NCBI GenBank assembly: GCA_026129165.1
Contig: JAHCIP010000019.1
Coordinates: 1 to 36,927, forward strand
Direction: 5' to 3'
From: Anaerolineae bacterium
GTDB lineage: Bacteria > Chloroflexota > Anaerolineae > Epilineales > JAHCIE01
DNA: 36,927 nucleotides
How positions within the stretch are numbered: position 1 is the stretch's first letter; every line of letters begins with the position of its first letter. Below, piece by piece: positions 30,226 through 36,927 of the stretch. Below the pieces are notes generated by a model. That model saw nothing but the letters and a program-made list of their open reading frames with translations. It made no database searches and was not told the DNA's origin. The translations under genes and the position numbers were made by a program.

Positions 30226-30708
30226 GTGGGCCAGATTCTCAGCCTTGATCAGATGCGCGATGAACGGGCGCGACTCCGCGCGGCAGGGCGGCGCCTGGTC
30301 ATGACCAACGGGGTCTTCGACCTGTTGCACATCGGCCACACGCGCTACCTGGCCCAGGCCCGCGCCCTCGGCGAGGCCCTGGTGGTGGCCGTCAATGACG
30401 ACCGCAGCGTCGCGGTTCTCAAGGGACTGCAGCGCCCCATCCTGCCCCTGGCCGAACGCCTGGAACTGGTCGCCGCCCTGGTCGCGGTGGACTACGCGCT
30501 GCCTTTCAGCGAGGACACGGCGGCCGCCGTCGTCCAGCTGTTGCAGCCCGATATGTATGTCAAAGGTGGCGACTACACGACCAAAGCACTGCCCGAAGCC
30601 CAGGTTGTCGCCGCCTATGGCGGCGAGGTACGTCTGCTGCCCATGACCCCTGCCCGGTCCACCTCGGACATTATTCGCGCCATCCAAAGCGGAACACGCC
30701 TCTCGTGA
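30226..30708 (+). CDS. HldE/RfaE domain II-type D-glycero-beta-D-manno-heptose 1-phosphate adenylyltransferase
   Basis: This 160-residue cytidylyltransferase-like fold protein has M-T-N-G-V-F-D-L-L-H-I-G-H (HxGH at 35-38), V-N-D-D-R-S-V, L-P-L-A-E-R-L-E-L-V-A-A-L, D-M-Y-V-K-G-G-D-Y and the R-S-T-S-D-I-I motif (144-150) that binds the nucleotide phosphates. In HldE this domain makes ADP-heptose from heptose 1-phosphate and ATP. Together with the kinase at 26738 it completes the HldE function as two proteins. Enzymes of this fold also make CDP-glycerol or FAD, but G-G-D-Y-T and the neighbourhood favour ADP-heptose. It has a GTG start with AGGAGG; its stop overlaps the murJ start by 4 bases. Confidence 0.85.
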   Translation: MGQILSLDQMRDERARLRAAGRRLVMTNGVFDLLHIGHTRYLAQARALGEALVVAVNDDRSVAVLKGLQRPILPLAERLELVAALVAVDYALPFSEDTAAAVVQLLQPDMYVKGGDYTTKALPEAQVVAAYGGEVRLLPMTPARSTSDIIRAIQSGTRLS

Positions 30709-32327
30709 TCGACTCACCCCATCCAGATGATACCGTCCCGCATCCTCCTGCCGTGACGCCCGTCACCCCGCCAGCCCCGCGCCCGCCAGCCAGCGCCAGC
30801 ATCGCCCGCGCGGCGACGTTGATCGGTCTGGGCAGCGTCGCCAGCCGTGTGTTTGGGATGCTGCGCGAGATGACCCTCACCCACTACTTTGGCGCGTCGG
30901 GTCTGGTCAGCGCCTACACCGTCGCCAGCTTCGTACCGCAGATGCTCTACGATATGGTCATCGGCGGCATGATTTCGTCGGCCCTGGTGCCCGTGTTCAG
31001 CGAGTATGCCGAGCGCGGCCGCGAGGAACTGGGCCGCCTAGCGAGTGTCATCCTCACCCTGGCGGTCCTTGGTCTGGTCCTTGTCGCCGCTCTGCTGATG
31101 GGGGGCGCGTCGCAGGTGGCGACGCTCATTGGCGGCGACCTGGACCCGCAATTCCTGGCCGTCGCCATCCACCTGCTGCGCGTGATTGCCCCGGCGACCA
31201 TCTTCCTGGGGCTGTCGGGCATCACCACGGCGCTGCTCTACGCGACGCAACGCTTTACCCTGCCCGCCTTTGTCATCACCGTCTTCAACGCGGCCCTGGT
31301 GGCGACGATAATCATCGGCGGAGGCGGCACAATCACCCTGGCAGCGGTGGGTTTCCTCGTCGGCAGCGTCTTGCAGGTCGTGCTCCAGGCGCCGGGGTTG
31401 CGCGACCTCCCCTTCCGCTGGTCGCTCGACCTCCGCCACCCGGCGTTGCGGCGCATCACTCTGCTGTACCTGCCCATGCTCCTCGGCATCGCCATCGCTC
31501 AGGTCGGCGCGATCATTGACCGCCGCCTCGCCTCGGGCGTCAGCGAACACGCCATCGCCTGGATGCGCTACGCGACCACGTTGCAGCAGTTCCCGCAGGG
31601 TCTTGTCACTACAGCAGTCAGCATGGCTGCCCTCCCCGCCCTAGCCCGCCAGGCCGGCGACCTGCCCGCCTTCCGCGTCACGCTCGGTTCGGCGTTGCGC
31701 GTCGTGCTGTTCCTGACGCTCCCGCTGTGCGTCGCCCTCTTCCTGCTGGCGGAGCCGTCGGTAGCCCTGCTCTTCGAGCGCGGGCGCTTCACGGCCTTCG
31801 ATACCCAGCAAACTGCCCTGGCCTTGCGCCTCTACCTCATCGGCCTCCCCTTCGCCGCCCTCGACCTCCCGCTCGTCTACGCCTTCTACGCCCGAGGCGA
31901 TACCCTGACCCCGAACCTGGTCGCCCTGGTGGGCGTCGCCGCCTATCTCGTCGTCGCTCTGCCCCTGGTGGAACCCCTCGGCTTCCTCGGCCTGGTAGCG
32001 GCCAACGCCGCCCAACTCGCCGCCCACGCGCTCGTCATGTTCTATCTGGCGCACCGCCGCTTCGATGGCGTGCGACGCCAGGCCATTGGGCGGACCTTGC
32101 TCAAGACAGGAGGAGCCTGCCTCGGCCTGCTGGCGGTCATTCTGGGCGTCGAGGCCGGGCTGGGACGACTTGGCTTGCACGGCGCCCTCGGCGCGCTCGT
32201 CCACCTCGTCCTGGCGGGCGGCCTCGGTCTCGCGGTCTTCGGCCTGCTGGCCGCCTGGCTGCGGCTGGCCGAGGCGCAGACCGTGGCCCGAGTGGTAACC
32301 CACCGCATTGGCAAGAGATTTGCTTGA
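30705..32327 (+). CDS. murJ: Lipid II flippase MurJ (MviN family)
   Basis: This 540-residue membrane protein has about 14 predicted helices. After a Pro-rich cytoplasmic leader (about 10-32) comes the family signature S-V-A-S-R-V-F-G-M-L-R-E with Arg48 and Arg54, matching the lipid-II-contact arginines of MurJ. Later conserved blocks are G-G-M-I-S-S-A-L-V-P-V-F-S-E-Y, F-P-Q-G-L-V-T-T-A-V-S-M-A-A-L-P and L-L-F-E-R-G-R-F-T-A-F-D. MurJ exports lipid-linked peptidoglycan precursor; relatives move other lipid-linked sugars, so export of a heptose-containing glycan is possible. It has a GTG start overlapping the adenylyltransferase stop (GTGA), indicating translational coupling. Confidence 0.9.
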   Translation: MIDSPHPDDTVPHPPAVTPVTPPAPRPPASASIARAATLIGLGSVASRVFGMLREMTLTHYFGASGLVSAYTVASFVPQMLYDMVIGGMISSALVPVFSEYAERGREELGRLASVILTLAVLGLVLVAALLMGGASQVATLIGGDLDPQFLAVAIHLLRVIAPATIFLGLSGITTALLYATQRFTLPAFVITVFNAALVATIIIGGGGTITLAAVGFLVGSVLQVVLQAPGLRDLPFRWSLDLRHPALRRITLLYLPMLLGIAIAQVGAIIDRRLASGVSEHAIAWMRYATTLQQFPQGLVTTAVSMAALPALARQAGDLPAFRVTLGSALRVVLFLTLPLCVALFLLAEPSVALLFERGRFTAFDTQQTALALRLYLIGLPFAALDLPLVYAFYARGDTLTPNLVALVGVAAYLVVALPLVEPLGFLGLVAANAAQLAAHALVMFYLAHRRFDGVRRQAIGRTLLKTGGACLGLLAVILGVEAGLGRLGLHGALGALVHLVLAGGLGLAVFGLLAAWLRLAEAQTVARVVTHRIGKRFA

Positions 32328-33229: not shown

Positions 33230-34927
33230 GTGCTTCGTCCCCCCATTATAGTCGCCTTGCTAGCCCTGGCGGTGACATGCGGGCTTGTGCGGACAGCGGA
33301 AGCTGCCCCCACACTCACGTATGCGTCTGCGCCACGCTATGTCGTACACCTCGCCCCCCAGGTGGACCTGGGAACGGCGCGTGCCCGCCTGACCGAAGCC
33401 GGGCTAAGTGTACATACCACGGTGGACTGCGCCCAGGCCCTAGTCGTGGAAGGGACGGCTGACGGCCTCACCCTCGCCAAGACGGCCAAGCTCGCCGGTA
33501 TCACCAGCCTCGAACCGGACTATCCCCAACCGGCCCACCTGCCCACCAGCCGTCCCCTGGCGTCGCCCATCCGACGCAGCGGACCGCACGCTGTGCCTAA
33601 CACCCAACCCAACGATGAATTCTTCCCCGACCAGTGGAATATACGCGCCATCTCCGCGCCGGATGCCTGGGAATACACGACTGGGGCGACCGATGCGTTG
33701 ACGACTGTGGCGGTCCTCGACACGGGCATTGACCTGGACCATCCAGACCTGGGGGGGAATGTCTTACTCGGCGCGGCCTGGAATTTCTACGACAATAACC
33801 GCGATGTTCAGGATATCAGTCCATCGGGCAGCGGTACCATGGTGGCGGGTATCATCGGGGCCACCGCCAATAATGGCTTTGGCATCGCCGGCCTGGCCTG
33901 GAGTCCCCAGATCATCCCCATCAAGGTCATTGGCTGGGACGCGGCTCACCAGATTGATGTCTTTTACTGGAGCGACGTGGCGGCGGGAATCTGTCATGCG
34001 GTGAACCGAGGCGCCCGCGTCATTCACATCAGCGCCTATCATCGCAACCTGGCCGGGGCGGGGAGCCTGCTGAACCAGGCCCTGACCTACGCCAACGACC
34101 GAGGCGCGATTGTCGTCGCCCCGGTCGGCGACGAGCGCCAGTTCGGCAATCCCATCGAGTACCCGGCCGCCTATGTCCGCCTCGTCATTGGCGTAGGCGC
34201 GGTCGACTCGACCAATAGCATTTGGGAACACTCCAATACGGGGAATTATGTCGACCTGGTCGCGCCTGGGGTGGATGTCGTCACGACCGTGCCGATGGCG
34301 ATTGATGAGGTGGGCGCGCGATACGGCACGGGCACGCTGCTGGCGGCGGCTCACGTGAGTGGGGTCGCCTTACTCATGCGCTCAGTCAACCCCGTCCTCT
34401 CGCCGTTCGAGATTGCCGATATTTTGCGGCAGAAGGCGGATGACCTGGGCGTGATTATTGGGCCAGACCCGACCTTTGGCGCGGGTCTGGTCAACGCGCT
34501 CAACGCGATCAAAGGCACGCCCCATCGCCTCACCGTCTCGCCGGCTGACCTGCTAGTCTTCGAGTGGGATGCTCAATCCCAAACGTATCGGCAGCCCTCG
34601 CAGACGGTCTGGAACAACCACACGGGGGCACGCACCTGGCGCACGACGGCGACCACCAGCTGGCTCCAGGTCAACGAGCCGACCAATGCCGCGCCCATCG
34701 GTTCCACCCCCTCGCTAGCCGCGATCAGCGTCGCGCCCCCTCGGCCTGGCGAGTGTAACACGCGGGCGGGCTATGTTCGCGCCGAGAGCCAGATGCCGAG
34801 CCGGGCCAATGGCCCTCAGGACATTCTGGTGCGGGTATTACTCCCTCCGTGCGCCGAGTCCCCCTTCGCCGTGTTCTTGCCCCTTATCCAGCACTCACCA
34901 CCGCGCCCGGTCAACACCAGTCGCTAA
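33230..34927 (+). CDS. Secreted subtilisin-fold protein lacking catalytic His and Ser (pseudo-subtilase 1)
   Basis: This 565-residue protein starts with a signal peptide (cleavage near A-E-A-A). Residues about 36-98 look like an I9-type propeptide (Y-V-V-H-L-A-P, ending L-E-P-D-Y). The S8 fold follows with Asp164 in V-A-V-L-D-T-G-I-D. The His motif reads G-S-G-T-M-V-A-G (Ser201 replaces His), the oxyanion Asn is Asp301 (V-A-P-V-G-D), and the GTSMAAPHVSG motif reads G-T-L-L-A-A-A-H-V-S-G with Leu370 replacing Ser. The structural Y-P-A-A-Y and L-V-A-P-G segments are intact. A BACON-like beta domain (about 432-540) and a tail with V-F-L-P-L-I-Q follow. The GTG at 33230 has GAGAAGG 6 bases upstream; an in-frame GTG at 33191 is less likely. 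Proteolysis is very unlikely. Confidence 0.85.
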   Translation: MLRPPIIVALLALAVTCGLVRTAEAAPTLTYASAPRYVVHLAPQVDLGTARARLTEAGLSVHTTVDCAQALVVEGTADGLTLAKTAKLAGITSLEPDYPQPAHLPTSRPLASPIRRSGPHAVPNTQPNDEFFPDQWNIRAISAPDAWEYTTGATDALTTVAVLDTGIDLDHPDLGGNVLLGAAWNFYDNNRDVQDISPSGSGTMVAGIIGATANNGFGIAGLAWSPQIIPIKVIGWDAAHQIDVFYWSDVAAGICHAVNRGARVIHISAYHRNLAGAGSLLNQALTYANDRGAIVVAPVGDERQFGNPIEYPAAYVRLVIGVGAVDSTNSIWEHSNTGNYVDLVAPGVDVVTTVPMAIDEVGARYGTGTLLAAAHVSGVALLMRSVNPVLSPFEIADILRQKADDLGVIIGPDPTFGAGLVNALNAIKGTPHRLTVSPADLLVFEWDAQSQTYRQPSQTVWNNHTGARTWRTTATTSWLQVNEPTNAAPIGSTPSLAAISVAPPRPGECNTRAGYVRAESQMPSRANGPQDILVRVLLPPCAESPFAVFLPLIQHSPPRPVNTSR

Positions 34928-34938
34928 GGACCCCGCTT

Positions 34939-36423
34939 ATGCTACGCCGTCTCCTCTGGCCGGCCCTGGCCGCCCTGCTGCTATTGTCGCTCGCCGCCGG
35001 TAACTTACTCTCCGCCCCCCGTCTCTCGGTCCCCACCCGCCTCCCCAATGACCCTCGCCTCAGTGAGCAGTGGGGGCTGGGCGGGGGCTTCGGGATCCAC
35101 GCCACCGACGCCTGGACGCTGACGACTGGCGCGGACATCACCATCGCCGTGCTCGACTCGGGTTTTGACCTGGCCCATCCTGACCTGGTGGACCGATGGG
35201 AAAGTCCATATAACTTCCTTGAGGAGGATGGCGTCCCTGCCGCTAATAACTGGACTGACAACTATGGCACAGCGATCGCTGGCATCATTGCGGCCACCGC
35301 TGACAATGCCCAGGGCATCAGCGGCGTGACCTGGCGGACACGCATCATGCCTCTGCGCGTGGTCAACCGCGAATTCCGCGATGGCACGGGCGCCCCTCTT
35401 CGCCTTAGCCAGACGGCGAGGTTCATCGTGGACGGTCTGAACTACGCGGTTCAACACGGCGCGCGCATCGTCGTCTTCGGCTTCAACATGCCCAACTTCA
35501 GTGAAAGCGACCGCGATCAGATTCAGCGCGCCATTCAGCGCCTCCAGGACCCGCTGAACGACGGCTACTTGGTCGTCATTGCGCCCGTCGGCGAACGGCC
35601 CACGCTCACGCCCTACCCGGCGGCCCTGAACGGGGTCATTGGCGTGACCGGCGTGATGACCGACGGGCTGGCCTTAGGCATTCGCTCCACTGGCCAGACC
35701 ATTGTTCCCCGCGGCCCCTTCGTGGACCTGGCCGCGCCAGCAGAGAGCATTCTCGCCCCCTACTGGGACTTTGACAGTAACCCACCACAACAGGGCTACC
35801 GCGCCCAACTGGGGACCGAGTTTGCCACAGGCTTCGTCGCTGGCGCAGCGGCCCTGGTCCTCTCCATGAACCCGAACCTGCCGCCCAGCCAGGTGGAGAC
35901 CATTCTGCGCACTTCCGCCACAGACCTGGGCGACCCTGGCCCCGATGACCTGTACGGAGCCGGGCTGGTCAACGCCCTGGCCGCGGTCCAGGGAACGCGC
36001 CACTACCTGTCTGTGCAGCCTAACTCGCTCAGCCTGCCCCCCATGGTCGGCGCGACTGCTACCCTTACCAACCCTTATACCCTGGCCGCGTCGTGGCGCG
36101 TTCTCAGCGCCCCAGAGTGGCTGAGCGTCGCGACACCGACCGATAGCGTCTCGTTCTCCACCGCGCGCGTGACCCTCCAGCGTGTTCCGACCTGCGCCGA
36201 GATGACGGCTGCCCAGCCCATCCTGCTTGCCAGCACGCTCCCGACTTCCTTCAGTGACCGCGAGATTGCCGTCCAGGTGGCCGGCGTCTGCGCCTCGTCA
36301 ACCACCCCGACCCCCCAGCCCACCCGCACCGCTACCCCGGTCGTCGCGACACCCCCGCCCAGCCAGCAATTGTTCCTGCCCCACATCGTACACGGCTGCA
36401 AGAACGGCATCTGCCCCAGATGA
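34939..36423 (+). CDS. Secreted subtilisin-fold protein lacking catalytic His and Ser (pseudo-subtilase 2)
   Basis: This 494-residue protein has a signal peptide and no I9-like propeptide. The S8 fold has Asp73 in I-A-V-L-D-S-G-F-D. The His position is Tyr109 (D-N-Y-G-T-A-I-A-G-I-I), the oxyanion Asn is Glu219 (I-A-P-V-G-E), and the nucleophile is Glu294 in G-T-E-F-A-T-G-F-V-A-G. The flanking framework (Y-P-A-A-L-N-G-V-I-G-V-T-G, V-D-L-A-A-P, D-L-Y-G-A-G-L-V-N-A-L) is well kept. After it come a BACON-like domain (P-N-S-L-S-L-P ... W-L-S-V), a Pro/Thr linker (about 455-475) and a tail with L-F-L-P-H-I-V. AAGGA lies 8 bases before the ATG, 11 bases after the first pseudo-subtilase's stop, so both are cotranscribed. 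Confidence 0.85.
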   Translation: MLRRLLWPALAALLLLSLAAGNLLSAPRLSVPTRLPNDPRLSEQWGLGGGFGIHATDAWTLTTGADITIAVLDSGFDLAHPDLVDRWESPYNFLEEDGVPAANNWTDNYGTAIAGIIAATADNAQGISGVTWRTRIMPLRVVNREFRDGTGAPLRLSQTARFIVDGLNYAVQHGARIVVFGFNMPNFSESDRDQIQRAIQRLQDPLNDGYLVVIAPVGERPTLTPYPAALNGVIGVTGVMTDGLALGIRSTGQTIVPRGPFVDLAAPAESILAPYWDFDSNPPQQGYRAQLGTEFATGFVAGAAALVLSMNPNLPPSQVETILRTSATDLGDPGPDDLYGAGLVNALAAVQGTRHYLSVQPNSLSLPPMVGATATLTNPYTLAASWRVLSAPEWLSVATPTDSVSFSTARVTLQRVPTCAEMTAAQPILLASTLPTSFSDREIAVQVAGVCASSTTPTPQPTRTATPVVATPPPSQQLFLPHIVHGCKNGICPR

Positions 36424-36429
36424 AGTAAG

Positions 36430-36517
36430 ACGAAGAACGGAGGACGGAGGACAAAACAATTCCTCCGTCCTCCGTCTTTGGTCTTCCGTCCTCGGTCCTT
36501 CGTCCTCCGTCCCCGGT
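36430..36517. repeat. Degenerate heptanucleotide repeats forming an inverted repeat (locus D)
   Basis: Three units of type ACGGAGG (36430-36450) face eight complementary 7-base units (36462-36517, CCTCCGT type). The arms 36437-36451 and 36461-36475 form a perfect 15-bp stem with a 9-base loop. The array fills the gap between two convergent genes, ending one base before the stop codon of the glycoside hydrolase gene. Confidence 0.85.
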
Positions 36518-36518
36518 C

Positions 36519-36927
36519 CTACTTTGGCATCGCTTTCAGGGCGTTGAAGGCCGGGCGGGGCGTGCCGTCTGGTTCGGTGATCGCCCACCAGTACTGCTCG
36601 TTCTCTGGCTTCCAATCCGGGTCGGCGATGTAGATTAGGATCATCGGCCCCATCCAGGGCGACCAGTTCTTCTTGGCATATTGGTAGGCGCGGACCAGGT
36701 AATCGGCCTTTTGCTCCTCGGTGACGGCGTGCCAGGCATAGGCCGGGTGGACCTTGTCCGAGGTCCAGCCAAACTCCAGAATCGCCACCTGTTTGTTCTC
36801 GTCGCCGTACTTGACCATGATCTTGCGCAGGTCTTCGACGCGGCGGAAGGTAAAGAAGCGCTCGCCGCCGTAGAGTTCCTTGTTAGCGGCCGCTTCGTCG
36901 GGTGAGACCTCGGGCGCGGCCCTGAAA
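36519..36927 (-). CDS. Glycoside hydrolase C-terminal part (clan GH-A type; 5' truncated by window edge)
   Basis: The frame is open from the window end to TAG at 36519-36521, giving about 136 residues of the C-terminus. Q-V-A-I-L-E-F-G-W-T-S-D places a Glu at the end of a beta strand, the usual position of the catalytic nucleophile in GH39/GH5-type TIM barrels. V-T-E-E-Q-K-A-D-Y-L-V-R-A-Y-Q-Y-A-K-K-N-W and D-G-T-P-R-P-A-F-N-A-L are also typical of the last barrel helices in such enzymes. The substrate cannot be judged from this part. The gene converges on pseudo-subtilase 2. Confidence 0.75.
   Translation of the reverse strand, partial: FRAAPEVSPDEAAANKELYGGERFFTFRRVEDLRKIMVKYGDENKQVAILEFGWTSDKVHPAYAWHAVTEEQKADYLVRAYQYAKKNWSPWMGPMILIYIADPDWKPENEQYWWAITEPDGTPRPAFNALKAMPK

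Follow-up and report, generated by a model that had tools for sequence, protein, structure and literature searches.

Two adjacent genes within one stretch of Anaerolineae DNA encode proteins that look like secreted subtilases and lack most of the residues that make a subtilase a protease. This raises the questions of whether they are proteases in decay or a fold retained for another role, and of when the residues were lost. The stretch (the window; 36,927 nucleotides) corresponds to contig C101 in a draft genome (G000) of 6.5 Mb and 598 contigs, and the proteins are named here P1 and P2. The results presented below make it probable that P1 and P2 belong to an ancient, vertically inherited and radiated family of secreted Anaerolineae pseudo-subtilases, kept as a binding or scaffolding fold. 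The finding is broader than was proposed in an earlier reading of the window made from its letters alone (the sequence-only reading): it concerns a tandem duplication within an old family and not an isolated pair.

P1 and P2 retain the subtilisin fold and lack a catalytic triad

Both reading frames are unbroken from their start codons (GTG at 33230 for P1 and ATG at 34939 for P2) to the stop. The P1 stop and the P2 start are separated by 11 nt and, because the AAGGA ribosome-binding site of P2 overlaps the stop codon of P1, translation of the two genes is likely coupled. The Pfam subtilase profile PF00082 matches P1 with an E-value of 1.5e-34 (120.1 bits) and P2 with 3.4e-33 (115.6 bits), both above the gathering cut-off of 21.8 bits. 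AlphaFold2 models, for which an alignment of 17 family members served as input, reached predicted template-modelling (pTM) scores of 0.80 for P1 and 0.79 for P2. When these models were compared with the PDB using Foldseek, the top match for P1 was unprocessed pro-subtilisin E (3whi), while P2 matched the Vpr fibril first and then subtilisins; the target-normalised TM-score to classical subtilisins was ~0.8-0.9 for both. Profile, models and structural matches thus bear out that the subtilisin fold is retained.

An active S8 peptidase has an Asp-His-Ser triad and an oxyanion Asn, and of these residues the Asp alone is retained in P1 and P2. At the positions of Asp, His, Asn and Ser the alignments place D164, S201, D301 and L370 in P1 and D73, Y109, E219 and E294 in P2, exactly the replacements that the sequence-only reading had listed. 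A misalignment concealing a His or Ser was ruled out, as no shift of the alignment restores either residue, and the P1 alignment is anchored by unmistakable motifs adjoining the sites (G-S-G-T and G-T-L-L-A-A-A-H-V-S-G). A corrected alignment with an active-site His and Ser, the outcome that the earlier reading had named as speaking against it, was looked for and did not arise.

P1 and P2 lie within one clade of inactive subtilases

Homologues were sought initially in 41 related genomes, which yielded many active subtilases and few inactive ones, and then in order-wide, class-wide and phylum searches. These revealed a clade of ~19 catalytically dead subtilases with P1 and P2 inside. Inactive members are present in all seven genomes of the order that were searched (three to four each in G000-G003 and one each in G004-G006) and, beyond it, in G064 and G091, which belong to another family of the class Anaerolineae. 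In the phylum search, where the best three candidates per genome were scored, no further member was found outside the class at the threshold used. A scan of genome contigs gave no match with P2 alone, and with two sequences it matched only the sister genome G001 (TGS_CHL1).

In IQ-TREE analyses with the four catalytic residues masked, 20 inactive sequences formed one side of a branch (support 100/83) against 67 active ones. When the surrounding motifs were masked too, 18 inactive sequences stayed together and one, G002:C10, shifted among the active sequences; a single clade of all 19 was not rejected by these data (p = 0.12). Constraining P1, P2 and their G001 orthologues together came at no cost (p = 0.51), so that the data allow P1 and P2 to be sisters. 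One main origin of the inactive clade is therefore well supported by the sequence comparisons and, because P1 and P2 sit in this one clade, their tandem duplication most likely came after inactivation.

The arrangement of the locus bears on the same point. The order MurJ, pseudo-subtilase(s), glycosyl-hydrolase-like gene is found with the pair in G000 and G001 and with one inactive copy in G003, which belongs to another family. Adjacency of the pair, which the sequence-only reading had asked about, is thus kept in both genomes of the genus, the one genus in which it was observed. The same reading held that P1 and P2 had lost their residues independently. This was rejected by the residue-masked and motif-masked trees and by the constraint test; one ancestral inactivation followed by duplication and drift would account better for the differences between P1 and P2. 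Nor are the relatives mostly active with P1 and P2 as decayed copies: the nearest relatives are all inactive and conserved.

A further inactive type, with a His in the oxyanion loop (APAH), is represented by G002:C10 and by C479/C6 of G000 (L174; end of L172 and start of L173). The two G000 pieces are probably one gene divided between two contigs, and this type probably reflects a separate, second inactivation. Outside the trees, the subtilase L191 (G429, in another family of the phylum) carries N where the His would be and A where the Ser would be, and looks like another independent inactivation.

The oxyanion Asn was probably the first residue to change

Sites are numbered here as in subtilisin (D32, H64, N155 and S221). 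Position 155 is acidic, either Asp or Glu, in 17 of the 17 aligned clade members, including P1 (D301) and P2 (E219), and the change at this position is the sole one common to all members. Parsimony required one change from intact to lost at N155, two each at H64 and S221, and five at D32, whereas changes of residue type numbered 3, 11, 13 and 6 at N155, H64, S221 and D32, respectively. The H64 and S221 positions vary freely within the clade. Among the three outlying members, from G064 and G091, two retain the His and two retain the Asp; the nucleophile Ser is retained in two members from G003, and in G003:C246 the residue at the Asp position is Ser. These patterns suggest that loss of N155 came first in the clade.

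The oxyanion hole, left empty, may now be filled by the acid at position 155. Asn155 and Gly154 are coordinated by Thr220 in active subtilases (PMC11593635), and Thr220 is retained in 13 of the 17 aligned members. A more far-reaching idea, which we consider unlikely, gives the subtilisin fold a new function marked by this carboxylate: it would fill the oxyanion hole from within and bond the N-terminus of the Ser helix, and would serve either to lock a dead subtilase in a stable state or to form part of a new site for a ligand, a metal or catalysis across a radiated family of surface proteins.

The fold core is conserved and the substrate cleft is not

Between G000 and G001 the ratio of nonsynonymous to synonymous substitution rates (dN/dS) is approximately 0.26-0.31 for P1 and P2, bearing out purifying selection, and 0.18-0.26 for neighbouring genes in the window (PfkB, cytidylyltransferase, MurJ, glycosyltransferase and one further gene). 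The active relatives have 82 conserved alignment columns, and in 60 of these the most frequent residue is unchanged in the inactive clade. Among the other 22, which count as lost, are those of the His loop, SGxG loop and SLGG strand and of the beginning of the Ser helix, and loss is concentrated in the cleft (11/19 cleft columns versus 11/63 others; Fisher p = 0.001, an indicative value because cleft columns were assigned by motif after the list had been seen). By these alignments the core of the fold is kept in the clade and the substrate site is dismantled.

Domains flanking the subtilase fold

A prodomain is predicted in P1 and none in P2. Residues 36-97 of P1 are modelled as beta-alpha-beta-beta-alpha-beta, and this region gave a weak profile match to the Fervidolysin-type prodomains of active relatives and of other family members (p = 9e-5). 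Together with the Foldseek match to pro-subtilisin E, this supports the propeptide that the sequence-only reading had assigned to P1. The BACON-like domain of that reading fared less evenly. Pfam calls no BACON domain in P1 or P2; profile comparison shows that their C-terminal domains are homologous to that of active Anaerolineae subtilases (p = 1e-6). Because the match to BACON_2 lies in two of these active homologues, and under the cut-off, the label "BACON-like" is reasonable but indirect. The F-L-P-x-I tail is real in both proteins but not specific to them, as it also occurs on active relatives and on unrelated secreted proteins. A C-terminal (F/Y)LPLx tail is found on the unrelated protein L163:13526-15616, on a Big_1-repeat protein (L169) and on many active subtilases, and looks like a lineage-wide C-terminal signal.

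Origin and possible role of the family

The following scenario would accommodate these results. The ancestor of the family would have been an active subtilase composed of a signal peptide, a prodomain, the S8 domain, a BACON-like domain and an FLPLx tail. A shared loss would have converted the oxyanion Asn155 into Asp or Glu, after which drift would have affected the positions of His, Ser and Asp as well as the strands that bind substrate. The family would then have radiated by duplication, P1 and P2 representing one tandem duplication at the MurJ locus, with purifying selection preserving the rigid core as a module for binding or scaffolding at the surface or outside the cell. For P1, folding with an uncut prodomain is most likely, as in CspC of Clostridioides difficile; P2, having none, would fold alone or aided by P1. 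Secreted pseudo-subtilases with a non-proteolytic role, as first proposed, are thus the best reading here, in which we infer that both proteins are secreted and have lost all activity, that they serve in binding or scaffolding, and that they may contact each other.

Several observations weigh against this scenario. Synonymous divergence between G000 and G001 is ~1.1-1.3, and the dN/dS values are rough because these sites are near saturation; in addition, the pseudo-subtilase genes evolve faster than their neighbours. The AlphaFold2 models rest on 17 sequences only. Support for one clade weakens for G002:C10 under motif masking, and shared relaxed constraint may draw inactive sequences together in trees. 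Finally, the P1 orthologue in G001 is frameshifted, with several frames across ~300 bases. MurJ and a gene for a 743-amino-acid protein on the same contig (L058/L165, G001:C2) also change frame, which points to sequence errors; indel errors in the TGS_CHL1 assembly are the simplest explanation, though real decay is possible there.

Two of these features, faster evolution and frameshifts, are what one would expect if P1 and P2 were decaying duplicates, two former proteases becoming ordinary pseudogenes. We disfavour this explanation and hold it to be extremely unlikely: inactive homologues occupy orthologous loci in different families of the order, nearly all frames are open, dN/dS is ~0.3 with the fold core kept, and the frameshifts in G001 extend to MurJ. 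The conserved fold would also suit proteins that capture peptides in the dead cleft and so act as substrate decoys or inhibitors; a pseudoprotease can in general bind the substrates of its active relatives. However, the SLGG strand and the SGxG loop, conserved in active enzymes, are variable throughout the clade, and this loss of the substrate-binding strands makes the decoy role suggested by the sequence-only reading very unlikely.

A stronger case can be made for P1 and P2 as an obligate heteromer with a ligand-sensing role and control over an active subtilase, the relation that CspC:CspA has to CspB, although we still regard it as doubtful. The genes are adjacent, probably coupled in translation and kept together in both genomes of the genus; one product has a prodomain and the other does not; G000 and G003 each have another pseudo-subtilase in the vicinity of an active subtilase; and a crystal structure together with germination data on CspC:CspA provides a precedent (PMC12880746). 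On the other hand, an active subtilase was not among the genes seen at the MurJ locus, and the single copy there in G003 indicates that a partner is not needed in general. There is, lastly, the idea of a new catalytic or metal-dependent activity around the acid at position 155, for instance serine-carboxyl chemistry like that of sedolisins (MEROPS S53), a sister family of subtilases with Asp at the oxyanion position. The acid found in all 17 aligned clade members, P1 and P2 included, agrees with this, but P1 and P2 differ from sedolisins in lacking both a Glu where the His would be and a nucleophilic Ser. As none of the members read has Glu or Asp at the His position, Ser is found at its position in the two G003 members only, and Asp32 is lost in many, we judge such an activity highly improbable.

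Comparison with known subtilases and pseudoproteases

To our knowledge, few bacterial subtilase pseudoenzymes are known. The clearest parallel is CspC of C. difficile, which has a subtilisin fold with the Asp kept (triad D105, T170, G485) and a prodomain that is not cut (PMC6636752), and which acts as a pair with the pseudoprotease CspA in a CspC:CspA heterodimer (PMC12880746). P1 and P2 are likewise dead subtilases with catalytic residues replaced and the Asp kept, two side by side, and by analogy the family could in principle work like the Csp pseudoproteases. They are nevertheless not Csp members. P1 scored 17.1 bits with the NCBIfam model CspC_non_triad (cut-off 675) and 24 bits with CspBA (cut-off 1250), well short of both cut-offs and no better than an active relative, and P2 gave no match. 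Csp proteins have a jelly-roll domain and occur in spores, whereas P1 and P2 have a signal peptide, a BACON-like domain and an FLPLI-type tail and come from Anaerolineae.

The nearest active homologues are Anaerolineae subtilases (for example L142, L145 and L156) with the same architecture and domains (S8, BACON-like, FLPLx), which differ from P1 and P2 in their intact D/H/N/S residues and substrate strands. The best NCBIfam match of the S8 domain is to the type VII secretion mycosins (TIGR03921; 4.9e-57 for P1), but the equivalog cut-off of 278.75 bits is not reached by P1 (193.7) or P2 (161.2). Unlike these mycosins, P1 and P2 have no catalytic triad, and no type VII locus was noticed.

Csp pseudoproteases have been presented as peculiar to C. 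difficile and the family it belongs to (PMC6636752), and no account was found in the literature of such a pseudo-subtilase family in Chloroflexota. The present family is a separate and larger one, found in environmental bacteria, with conserved loci and represented by several paralogues per genome. On one architecture, its relatives range from active through half-inactivated to fully inactive, a natural series that makes testable the order in which the parts of an enzyme are lost and the use made of the leftover fold. A caution also follows for genome surveys: when secreted subtilases are counted in these bacteria, dead ones are counted with them.

Genomic surroundings

The features of the region are collected in Table 1.

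Table 1. Positions in the window of P1, P2, their parts and the flanking marker genes.
Feature	Position	Strand	Evidence
MurJ (lipid II flippase), upstream syntenic marker, open from GTG at 30705	30705..32327	+	Pfam MurJ 1.9e-78 on G001 orthologue; orthologues in G001 and G003
P1, pseudo-subtilase, 565 amino acids: signal peptide, prodomain, S8 fold, BACON-like domain, FLPLI tail	33230..34927	+	Intact open reading frame, PF00082, AlphaFold2
P1 prodomain, ~residues 30-105, subtilase prodomain fold, presumably not self-cleaved	33317..33544	+	Model, Foldseek, profile
P1 subtilase fold, residues 127-427	33608..34510	+	phmmer to thermitase/AK.1 protease
P1 Asp164, catalytic Asp kept	33719..33721	+	Profile alignment
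P1 Ser201 where catalytic His expected	33830..33832	+	Profile alignment
P1 Asp301 where oxyanion Asn expected	34130..34132	+	Profile and multiple alignment
P1 Leu370 where nucleophile Ser expected	34337..34339	+	Profile alignment
P1 BACON-like beta-sandwich, ~residues 430-540	34517..34849	+	Model strands 440-537, profile match
P1 FLPLI tail	34874..34888	+	Alignment; common to other secreted proteins of these bacteria
AAGGA ribosome-binding site of P2, overlaps P1 stop codon	34926..34930	+	Sequence
P2, pseudo-subtilase, 494 amino acids: signal peptide, S8 fold, BACON-like domain, FLPHI tail, no prodomain	34939..36423	+	Intact open reading frame, PF00082, AlphaFold2
P2 Asp73 (numbered from ATG), catalytic Asp kept	35155..35157	+	Profile alignment
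P2 Tyr109 where catalytic His expected	35263..35265	+	Profile alignment
P2 Glu219 where oxyanion Asn expected	35593..35595	+	Multiple alignment
P2 Glu294 where nucleophile Ser expected	35818..35820	+	Profile alignment
P2 BACON-like domain	36001..36288	+	Model strands 364-448, profile match
Glycosyl-hydrolase-like gene, downstream syntenic marker, cut by window end	36519..36926	-	Identity to relatives

The glycosyl-hydrolase-like gene is 83% identical to L165:2218-3504 (Cellulase/GH5) and 73% identical to L059:7841-8869. A second locus, present in G000 (L163, C335), G001 (L164, C157) and G003 (L068, C144), has the order pseudo-subtilase, FHA/winged-helix protein, Ser/Thr kinase and GH3; an active subtilase lies beyond it in G000, where it has a CAP domain, and in G003. 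The pseudo-subtilase of this second locus has an extra segment inserted ahead of the S8 domain. In G064 (L169, C12) and G091 (L171, C102) an inactive member is located directly upstream of a gene for a ~2,100-amino-acid protein with Big_1/Invasin_D3 repeats. These neighbours weakly suggest cell-surface functions of the family.

Between P2 and the convergent glycosyl-hydrolase gene, at 36430-36515, lies an array of 7-base repeats of the GGACGGA type that forms an inverted repeat. An 18-mer from this array, GGACGGAGGACGGAGGAC, gave 32 exact matches in the genome; its reversal, used as a control, gave 0.

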